Source: Avibacterium sp. 20-132
Lineage (GTDB): Bacteria > Pseudomonadota > Gammaproteobacteria > Enterobacterales > Pasteurellaceae
DNA: 64,000 nt
Reading direction: 5' to 3'
Assembly (NCBI RefSeq): GCF_023611925.1
Contig: NZ_CP091456.1
Location: 1,902,001-1,966,000 of the forward strand
The first letter of the stretch is position 1; every line of letters begins with the position of its first letter. A model generated the notes under the pieces. The model saw only the letters and a list, made by a program, of their open reading frames with translations. It was not told where the DNA came from and searched no databases. The position numbers and the translations under genes are program-made. Shown here one piece after another: positions 41,263 to 44,335 of the stretch.

Positions 41263-41523
41263 AAATTTCTCTTTGTGTCTGATTACAAGTCAGGCATTCA
41301 CTCAAGGCAAATGCGTAAAGGCGGTTATTGTAGGGGGATTTTGTGATTTGTAAAGCTTAAAAAATACCAAATATAGGAACTAATTATTTTTAGTTATTTG
41401 TTGCTTTTTTGTTAAGTTATGCTTAATATTAAACTGAAGAGATAAGTTGTTGTTTTCTCTAACTCGGGTTGTTACTTGTAGTTTTAGTATCAACAGGTTA
41501 TTTTGCGTCCTTAACTTTGTGAT

Positions 41524-41687
41524 AAGGACTTCCTATCTAAGGACTTCCTATCTAAGGACTTCCTATCTAAGGACTTCCTATCTAAGGACTTCCTATCTAA
41601 GGACTTCCTATCTAAGGACTTCCTATCTAAGGACTTCCTATCTAAGGACTTCCTATCTAAGGACTTCCTATCTAAGGACTTCCTATG
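41524..41687 (+). repeat. Eleven 15-bp tandem repeats ending in the ribosome binding site of the next gene
   Basis: The unit AAGGACTTCCTATCT is repeated ten times exactly (41524-41673); an eleventh copy (41674 onward) changes to AAGGACTTCCTATG, which supplies both AAGGA and the ATG at 41685. Each unit thus carries a ribosome-binding-like AAGGA. Fifteen bases is five codons, so gain or loss of units does not shift frame. It would change leader length or promoter spacing. Perfect copies suggest recent expansion and continuing instability. Confidence 0.97.
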
Positions 41688-42818
41688 AAAAATATATTAA
41701 CGAGAGAAGAATATCTTGATATTTCTGTATTAAGTGAACCACTTGCGTGTGTTATGCATGCTTATCGCCGATTACCTGAAACTTTACATATTGATGTAAT
41801 TACTATTTTGGGAGCTGGTCCAATCGGAACATTACACGCATTATACGCACATAGATTATATCCCTTAGCATCAATTCAAATGATTGAGCCTGATGATACA
41901 AGAAGAGAGCTAATTAAAGGTTTACTTCCCTTTGTTTCCGTATTTAGAGAATATAACAGTTTTGATTTGAGTAAATCTAATCTTACTGTTGTTGCCACTA
42001 GTTGCCCTAAAGCTCAAACTTCAGCTATTGAAGTGTCTTCCGAATATGGCATTGTTATATTGTTCTCGGGGATTAATCATAAGAAAAAAGATGAGTTACC
42101 AATTTATGAAGGACAGGATCTAGAACATATACATAGAAATGAAGAAGTGGTTGTTATTTCCAAAAATATTAGATTGATAGGTTCTTCGGGTTATCATCCT
42201 GCAGAAATAGATTTATCTTTGGAAGAGTTGATTAATCACTACCACTATTATAAGGTTGTTCAAACAGAAGTTGTTAATGGATTGGGGAATAATATTATTG
42301 GAAATCAAACTTTGCTTGAGCCTGCAATTATAAAATTATTAAATGATCAAAATTTCTCTCAAAATTACTTAAAAGTTTTATTTAGGCACGAACCATTTCC
42401 AAGTAGAGAAACGAGAGTTATTTTTACAAATAATGGTGTTGGTTTGGATTATTTTAATAATTTAAAACCAGAAAGAGGCGAAGTTTTAGTTCGTATATTA
42501 AGATCCAGTATTTGTCAAACAGATCGAAGAGTATTACAGGGATTAAAAAATAATGATATAAAAGAAGGAACTATTTTAGGTCATGAAGGAACAGGTATTA
42601 TTGTGTCTGTTGGGGAAGGTGTTAATGAGGAATTAATTGGAAAAACTTGTGCAATTTTGCCTCATTATTTAGCGAAGGAGGATAGCTGTAATCAAATTGG
42701 TATGGGGTATTTATCACCAGATATGAAACATTTGGGTATTCATATAAATGGTTGTTTTGCTACATTAGCAACGTTCCCATTATGTTGCATTAGAGAACAT
42801 TTACATTTTATAAATTAG
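41685..42818 (+). CDS. Zinc-type alcohol dehydrogenase-like protein with circularly permuted domain order
   Basis: A 377-residue protein made of two halves of the medium-chain dehydrogenase (MDR) family in reversed order. Residues 17-235 are what is normally the C-terminal half: SEPLACVMHAY (Glu18) then the Rossmann GAGPIG (43-48). Residues 241-377 are normally the N-terminal GroES-like half: GEVLVRI, SICQTDR (zinc Cys277), LGHEGTGI (His300, Glu301). It ends at LHFIN, exactly where a normal MDR would continue into SEPLAC. The structural zinc Cys cluster is missing. AAGGA from the last tandem repeat is 6 bases before the ATG. Substrate unknown; a sugar or polyol (phosphate) is a guess. Confidence 0.8.
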   Translation: MKNILTREEYLDISVLSEPLACVMHAYRRLPETLHIDVITILGAGPIGTLHALYAHRLYPLASIQMIEPDDTRRELIKGLLPFVSVFREYNSFDLSKSNLTVVATSCPKAQTSAIEVSSEYGIVILFSGINHKKKDELPIYEGQDLEHIHRNEEVVVISKNIRLIGSSGYHPAEIDLSLEELINHYHYYKVVQTEVVNGLGNNIIGNQTLLEPAIIKLLNDQNFSQNYLKVLFRHEPFPSRETRVIFTNNGVGLDYFNNLKPERGEVLVRILRSSICQTDRRVLQGLKNNDIKEGTILGHEGTGIIVSVGEGVNEELIGKTCAILPHYLAKEDSCNQIGMGYLSPDMKHLGIHINGCFATLATFPLCCIREHLHFIN

Positions 42819-43502: not shown

Positions 43503-43591
43503 TTAGAGATGACTATATTTTACGGTATTATCAAAAATTGAGAGGCTATAAAACAAGTGATCTGCCCCAAAGACCGGATACCCAATTTGAG

Positions 43592-43849
43592 GTGCAGATC
43601 ATCTCCCATTCTTATCAATTTCGTTTAGAAAGTATCAAACAGCTGACCGAGCAGGATATTGCTATCGGAGAAGTGACTAAACGTTATCAGATTTCTCATG
43701 CTCTTGCCATTAAGTGGCTAAAAGCCTTTCGTGAAAGAGGCTTAGAGGGGGGGAAATCGTCTTTTACTCAACCTAAAATACTCAAGCCCAAAATTAAGAA
43801 AAAAGAGATTAATGTTCCTGAACTCACTGATTTATCCCCAATCATTTAA
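43592..43849 (+). pseudogene. IS3-type OrfA (helix-turn-helix) remnant
   Basis: Readable part: FEVQIISHSYQFRLESIKQL, then DIAIGEVTKRYQISHALAIKWLKAF, a transposase helix-turn-helix, followed by a Lys-rich tail and a stop. It lacks a proper start and its second HTH. Confidence 0.75.
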
Positions 43850-43949
43850 AAAATTGCAACGTGATCTGGTTTTCACGCATGAAGAGATGGCTTATTTAAA
43901 AAAGTTGGAGGAGTTAAACCGACAAAAACGACGGCAGAAAAATCGACGC

Positions 43950-44335
43950 TAATGGATTTGGCAAATTGAGAAATTATCGACTATCAGTTTGCAAGACGCC
44001 CCAACTTTCCCTTGGAAAAGATGCTGGAACAAGGGTTAAGCCAATTAAGTGCCACGGATTGCCCTATTATTCACAGCGACCAGGGCGTCCTTTATAGCAC
44101 AAACGTTTGGTGAAAAATACTGGAGGGGGGCGCGATACTGAGTATGAGCCGACGAGGGAATTGCCATGATAATGCGGTAATGGAGAGTTTCTTTGCGATT
44201 TTGAAATCCGAGTGTTTTTATACGCGTAGCTATACGTCGATAGCGGAATTGTAAGCTGAACTTGAGGAATATGTGGTGTATTACAACCAAAAACGTATTA
44301 AAAAGGCTGAGTCCTGTTCAATACAGAACTCAGTA
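43950..44335 (+). pseudogene. IS3-type OrfB (integrase core) remnant
   Basis: In broken frames this encodes typical rve-core text: IIHSDQGVLYST, then after a frame change SMSRRGNCHDNAVMESFFAILKSE and EEYVVYYNQKRI. The second Asp and the final Glu regions are present, but stops and frame changes interrupt it. Confidence 0.8.

Follow-up and report, generated by a model that had tools for sequence, protein, structure and literature searches.

Few enzyme superfamilies are as large as that of the medium-chain dehydrogenases/reductases (MDRs). In their zinc-dependent members the usual order is a GroES-like catalytic half followed by a Rossmann half, and the four-cysteine structural-zinc loop is not universal among them. 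This study concerns a gene of Avibacterium sp. 20-132, located in a stretch of 64,000 nucleotides (NZ_CP091456.1, positions 1,902,001 to 1,966,000; hereafter the window), which encodes a zinc MDR whose two halves have changed places along the chain and is followed by a gene for a HAD-family phosphatase. The nearest known systems are the zinc MDRs of the polyol and L-threonine dehydrogenase type (2d8a, 2dfv, 4ej6, sorbitol dehydrogenase 1pl6 and galactitol-1-phosphate 5-dehydrogenase 4a2c). The Avibacterium protein is like them in having both halves, the GxGPxG motif, the Cys, His and Glu residues of the catalytic zinc and the fold of each half; it differs from them in the order of the halves and in the loss of the structural-zinc cysteines, and adds DRR, His327, His349, Arg151 and SSGY. 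Staphylococcus aureus TarJ, a ribulose-5-phosphate reductase (6xh9, 6xhk) found among both the sequence and the fold matches, is an MDR that acts on a sugar phosphate; its order is normal, and an active-site arginine is presumably common to both proteins. MtlD (7oct) follows the same logic of dehydrogenase plus HAD phosphatase, but there the phosphatase is fused to a mannitol-1-phosphate dehydrogenase, which we take to be a non-MDR, whereas here the two genes are adjacent.

Judged by its sequence, the gene is a real, inherited circular permutation of a zinc MDR and not a broken gene. We put at about 0.87 the probability that this is a natural permutation, most likely of single origin within its subfamily and sporadically spread by horizontal transfer, whose chain would close, bind NAD(H) and act on a phosphorylated substrate. 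The order of the halves, Rossmann first and zinc half second, had been proposed in the initial annotation, and Pfam, a profile comparison with PDB chains, half-profiles and BLASTP all bear it out. ADH_N, which is normally the N-terminal half, matches residues 264-365 with 45.3 bits (cut-off 23.5) and identifies the GroES-like catalytic half. The preceding part is a Rossmann half of the MDR type with a GAGPIG motif at residues 43-48; Glu_dehyd_C matches residues 14-161 with 16.4 bits, under its cut-off of 34.9. The family profile aligned its positions 242-370 with residues 7-137 of threonine dehydrogenase (TDH) 2d8a and, weakly (10.5 bits), its positions 33-85 with residues 165-216. BLASTP against 15 of the 22 normal-order subfamily relatives returned two segments in swapped order every time (15/15), each half matching the opposite end of the relative, and this rules out a swapped order arising by chance. 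Because the usual succession of GroES and Rossmann halves is absent, the protein is filed as a permuted variant and not as an ordinary MDR member. It also stays below the cut-offs of the NCBIfam equivalogs for L-threonine and polyol dehydrogenases, the best being PRK05396 at 59.4 bits against 380.

The position of the chain ends was refined by these comparisons. Residue 1 aligns with residues 178-185 of the normal-order relatives, and the joint can be placed at 235/236 because residue 235 or 236 meets the final residue of five of them (P0017, P0018, P0021, P0022 and P0023). An earlier suggestion that the protein begins and ends exactly at the SEPLACV boundary therefore holds for the hinge but not for the residue: the hinge helix now opens the chain, which starts 17 residues ahead of EPLACV, and beyond the last GroES strand the protein has a short tail that is its own. 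The order of the halves, the homologues and the predicted fold together support a clean permutation.

The permuted order is shared by a family. Homologue searches yielded 59 proteins, the window's own included, and a wider search, in which 7995 candidates sharing most words were scored, gave 139 matches, 120 of them listed; together these make 148 distinct proteins, the candidates being 0.55-1.75 times the query in length. With half-profiles built from 12 permuted proteins and the order called at E 1e-3, the Rossmann-GroES order was found among the matches listed in 16 of the 148 (the window's own and 15 others), the GroES-Rossmann order in 127 and a single half in 5. The GroES-Rossmann-GroES arrangement of three halves, in which an extra upstream half would have betrayed a broken fusion, was found in none (0/148). 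Permuted members include P0002 (78% identity), P0003 from Xenorhabdus sp. PR6a (60%), P0007 from Microvirga sp. ACRRW (48%), P0010 from the tardigrade Paramacrobiotus metropolitanus (44%) and P0014 from a Bdellovibrio metagenome-assembled genome (42%); P0006 lacks its beginning. The DNA of Xenorhabdus sp. IM139775 (locus L009) supplied a seventeenth. The starts of the complete members span about 8 columns of alignment A1, and the cut and the joint fall at the same place in independent members. It is very unlikely that the order is an artefact of the record, because 15 other proteins have it. Third codon positions were the most divergent in 6/6 pairs of the four permuted genes with DNA, a pattern as expected under purifying selection; synonymous divergence (dS) was saturated in 5/6 pairs, and no ratio is given. 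The source records name these proteins 'alcohol dehydrogenase catalytic domain-containing protein', 'threonine dehydrogenase-like Zn-dependent dehydrogenase', 'uncharacterized' or 'hypothetical', which illustrates how such cases stay hidden when annotation takes no account of domain order.

The conserved residues were counted in 17 permuted, 19 normal-order subfamily and 20 outgroup rows. The predicted zinc residues Cys277, His300 and Glu18, the last of which we take to be the counterpart of Glu155 in sorbitol dehydrogenase, remain in place as had been claimed (17/17, 17/17 and 16/17 permuted rows, with one gap for Glu18; Table 1), so that the residues of an MDR catalytic zinc are all present. 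The cofactor glycines G43, G45 and G48 are kept in all 16 permuted rows that cover them. Nine further positions mark the subfamily (Arg281, Arg282, Lys288, His150, Arg151, Ser168, Tyr170, His327 and His349) and are invariant in 17/17 permuted and 19/19 normal-order rows. In the outgroup (n=20), Arg281 and Arg151 occur in 2 rows each, Ser168 and Tyr170 in 3 each and His327 in 0, Arg282 and His150 in 12 each and Lys288 in 9; His349 is absent in the 18 rows displayed of the 20. A structural-zinc loop with four cysteines is found in 0/17 permuted rows, which have at most two, while four or five cysteines occur in 8/19 normal-order and 20/20 outgroup rows.

Table 1. Features of the permuted MDR locus, in positions of the window
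Feature	Position	Strand	Details
Tandem array, 15-bp unit TAAGGACTTCCTATC	41523..41686	+	10.9 copies, 100% match; ends in ATG
Likely ribosome-binding site AAGGA	41674..41678	+	6 nt before ATG, in last array unit; predicted from sequence
Permuted zinc MDR, 377 aa	41685..42818	+	Pfam, half-profiles, BLASTP, fold model
Residues 1-235, second half of a normal MDR	41685..42389	+	hinge helices with Glu18, Rossmann domain, C-terminal strand
Glu18 codon, predicted third zinc ligand or second-shell residue	41736..41738	+	16/17 permuted (1 gap), 19/19 normal-order, 20/20 outgroup
Residues 236-377, short joint and first half of a normal MDR (GroES-like zinc half)	42390..42815	+	ADH_N, profile, BLASTP
Cys277 codon, predicted zinc ligand	42513..42515	+	C in 17/17 permuted, 19/19 normal-order, 20/20 outgroup
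His300 codon, predicted zinc ligand	42582..42584	+	H in 17/17 permuted, 19/19 normal-order, 20/20 outgroup
HAD-family phosphatase, 222 aa	42834..43502	+	15 bp downstream of MDR gene, behind GATAGGAGG
Scattered short open reading frames resembling decayed IS3-type transposase	43538..44254	+	3' of HAD gene; by motif

The joint tree of both halves comprised 56 rows: 17 permuted, 19 normal-order and 20 outgroup (hand-picked). The permuted rows formed one clade (100/98) nested in the normal-order subfamily, and the fork uniting this clade with a sister group, P0017-P0024, was supported at 99/91. The tree of the GroES half also gave one permuted clade (99/99). The permutation thus most likely arose once, within an unnamed MDR subfamily of otherwise normal order, and one event is the simplest reading. 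The sister group (Rotaria socialis and unnamed records; 8 of the 19 normal-order rows) has the subfamily residues and shows 31-37% identity over 46-63% of the query; it differs from the permuted clade in its normal order and in that several members have, by eye, an N-terminal stretch like a signal peptide. Its eight rows have at most one cysteine in the structural-zinc loop. Since the sister group is without these cysteines and eight other normal-order rows keep them, the structural zinc was probably lost before the permutation. A plausible route, which fits a single origin, is duplication or fusion of two copies followed by loss of the outer halves; duplication with outer-half loss is the classic route to circular permutation.

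The mechanism that we propose is as follows. Both chain ends are located in the interdomain hinge, and a linker of a few residues connects the former C-terminus to the former N-terminus. The closed chain would be an MDR of the ordinary kind, its single catalytic zinc bound by Cys277, His300 and Glu18, contributed by opposite ends of the chain. NAD(H) would be bound through GAGPIG and Glu68/Arg73, a phosphorylated sugar or polyol may be held by Arg281-Arg282-Lys288, and the adjacent HAD phosphatase would remove the phosphate. The chemistry is where this explanation is least certain: an NAD(H)-linked oxidation or reduction of a sugar or polyol phosphate followed by dephosphorylation is offered tentatively, at somewhat less than even odds. 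The nearest solved chain to the HAD protein is yeast glycerol-3-phosphatase 1 (2qlt, E 7e-29), and in NCBIfam it scores 159 bits with the PRK11587 sugar phosphatase (cut-off 282). At the Xenorhabdus locus L009 the MDR and HAD genes are likewise adjacent, the HAD proteins are 69% identical, and GATAGGAGG again stands before the HAD gene.

Several observations weigh against this explanation. Arg282 and Lys288 are weak evidence for a phosphate because both are frequent in the outgroup (12/20 and 9/20). The next HAD matches are inorganic pyrophosphatases and beta-phosphoglucomutase-like proteins (E 2e-16 and weaker), which come ahead of the weak match to MtlD (E 1e-11). In the Microvirga and Bdellovibrio genomes the nearest HAD relatives lie on contigs other than that of the MDR gene, so the pair is not universal, and no published activity was found in the open-licence literature. 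We infer the zinc geometry and the domain closure from the conservation of residues. The Rossmann-half tree has no single permuted clade and needs two changes for the permuted label, one clade appearing in 10% of its bootstrap trees. Finally, no duplication intermediate with three halves is among the 148 proteins listed, for candidates of 0.55-1.75 times the query length.

Among the alternatives, a different chemistry survives best. The enzyme might oxidise a sugar, either free or phosphorylated, to yield a keto-sugar as part of a small pathway for an antimetabolite or amino sugar that includes export, and no polyol would be made. The neighbours of other permuted genes are consistent with this: in Microvirga the longest MDR open reading frame starts 3 bp after the end of a Gfo/Idh oxidoreductase gene (the listed start of the 403-aa protein 30 bp after it), with an MFS transporter 43 bp after the MDR gene; at the Xenorhabdus locus an MFS gene lies upstream on the opposite strand, and in Bdellovibrio an EamA transporter follows. 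In Microvirga a phosphohexomutase lies further on. The theme of Gfo/Idh, HAD and transporter presumably resembles the kanosamine operon ntdABC. However, no aminotransferase was found among the 7 neighbours at L009-L011 scanned with Pfam, and the window's HAD protein is nearest to glycerol-3-phosphatase; we consider the keto-sugar route possible but lean against it.

It is improbable that the protein is permuted and the halves of one chain stay unclosed, whether as a domain-swapped dimer or through reuse outside MDR catalysis. The joint, residues 235-241, is indeed short, with 7 residues to link the predicted strands 231-234 and 242-248. However, closure of a single chain is argued for because the conserved zinc ligands come from opposite ends of it, and the model of the single chain is confident, with a predicted local distance difference test (pLDDT) of 90.7 and a predicted template modelling score (pTM) of 0.90, where the initial annotation had asked whether the fold would close. 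Each half matches the MDR fold and sequence separately, in profile and fold searches, and the sequential template modelling score given by Foldseek was about 0.33. The ligands of both halves and the three cofactor glycines are moreover kept in all rows covering them.

Repeated origin of the permuted order from the same subfamily is an equally slim prospect. The two changes on the Rossmann-half tree speak for it, but enforcing one clade there costs 1.68 log units and is not rejected (approximately unbiased test, p 0.363), the joint and GroES-half trees each recover a single clade, and the aligned members share the place of cut and joint. A broken gene or remnant, that is, a normal MDR or a two-copy fusion that lost its upstream half in the Avibacterium strain, can be dismissed despite the apparently decayed transposase downstream and a truly decayed copy of the pair on a Xenorhabdus plasmid, since it is refuted by the 15 other proteins of the same order with their nearly common start, and the in-frame stops before the start, the third-position bias and the confident fold also stand against it.

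A single permutation within the subfamily would have consequences for how the superfamily is viewed. No described permuted MDR had been known to the initial annotation, and none was found in the open-licence literature. We think it fairly probable that this is the first natural permutation in the MDR superfamily, an active enzyme whose ends moved once to the hinge and which gene transfer has carried across proteobacteria, Bdellovibrio and perhaps animals. In that case the chain ends, once at the outer rim of the catalytic domain, would now sit in the hinge, so that the Rossmann domain would cease to be an insertion and residues 171-377 or so, most of the catalytic domain, would be continuous. 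A 2026 survey describes the Rossmann domain of zinc dehydrogenases as an insertion-only module, with 450 events and 98.9% GroES-related hosts (PMC13114784); the permuted family would break that rule as stated there. The two orders within one subfamily offer a matched pair for relating chain order to folding, domain opening and catalysis, and the permuted proteins offer a natural scaffold with chain ends at the hinge.

The gene had been thought to start at 41524. This position belongs to the first part of a 15-bp tandem array, and the open reading frame starts with the ATG at 41685, in which the array ends. Each array unit has a Shine-Dalgarno-like AAGGA followed by CTTCCTATC. A TAA stop lies in the frame of the gene in each of the 4 units displayed, and with the array perfect this leaves no in-frame coding upstream of 41685. 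The unit was found at 10 places in the 2.585-Mb genome at up to 1 mismatch, all of them in the array; chance was ruled out (10 matches against 0 in shuffles). The copy number of the array could tune translation of the permuted MDR gene. The array RNA folds at -66.4 kcal/mol (z -2.85), from which nothing is claimed because shuffled sequences make a poor comparison for a repeat. A promoter scan was uninformative (8 sites against 9.4 expected), as was the same scan for terminators, in which none was found.

The distribution of the gene is sparse. End-to-end matches were confined to the genome itself among 61 near relatives, 369 genomes of the class (E <= 1e-14) and 398 of the phylum (E <= 1e-25); 38 of the 61 near relatives gave some match at E 1e-3, the others of these being partial, as ordinary MDRs give. 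Similarly, only the centre genome itself matched end to end among 30 Xenorhabdus genomes and among 290 of the phylum of the Bdellovibrio metagenome-assembled genome. Of 40 loci on genome contigs, 3 (L009-L011) matched end to end and the other 37 were weaker (E 3e-9 or worse). Five genus relatives were fetched (G001, G002, G003, G005 and G006; G004 was left out and G003 was not resolved). In G001, G002 and G005 the site is empty, with the flanks 46-102 bp apart compared with about 3 kb in the window, and G006 has at the same site a HAD gene of 78% DNA identity and no MDR gene (L079 11345-10741). Therefore the pair was acquired or lost here, and the MDR gene can go missing while the HAD gene stays. 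The GC content is 0.317 for the MDR gene, 0.383 for the window and 0.405 for the HAD gene. The permuted gene has most likely spread sporadically by horizontal transfer. As to carriers, tblastn gave no match in 50,697 phage records, 11 stretches of viral contigs fit a pattern and none encodes a relative, and of 31 plasmid records with a match none covers over 80% of the query. A decayed MDR-HAD pair on the Xenorhabdus TH1 plasmid (L049 14992-16866) has left a GroES part and HAD pieces, with transposase-like open reading frames (by eye) between them. The IS3-type label downstream of the window's HAD gene presumably holds, by its motif; Pfam gave no match on 43538-43849.

Some minor observations concern the homologues and the window. 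The permuted tardigrade protein P0010 is encoded on a 1.84-Mb contig, and the normal-order P0017 and P0028 are from Rotaria rotifers; these animal records reflect either gene transfer into animals or contamination. The stretch resembling a signal peptide (by eye) in the normal-order P0018-P0024 is odd for an NAD-dependent MDR. Pfam found no convincing family in the N-terminal extensions of P0062, P0064, P0025 and P0063, which, like P0065, are normal-order proteins with 150-330 additional N-terminal residues; an HLHIN motif lies inside those of P0062 and P0064. Finally, the window has 28 occurrences of AAGTGCGGT, which we take to be the uptake sequence of the Haemophilus type, where 0.27 would be expected; this fits a host of the Pasteurellaceae.
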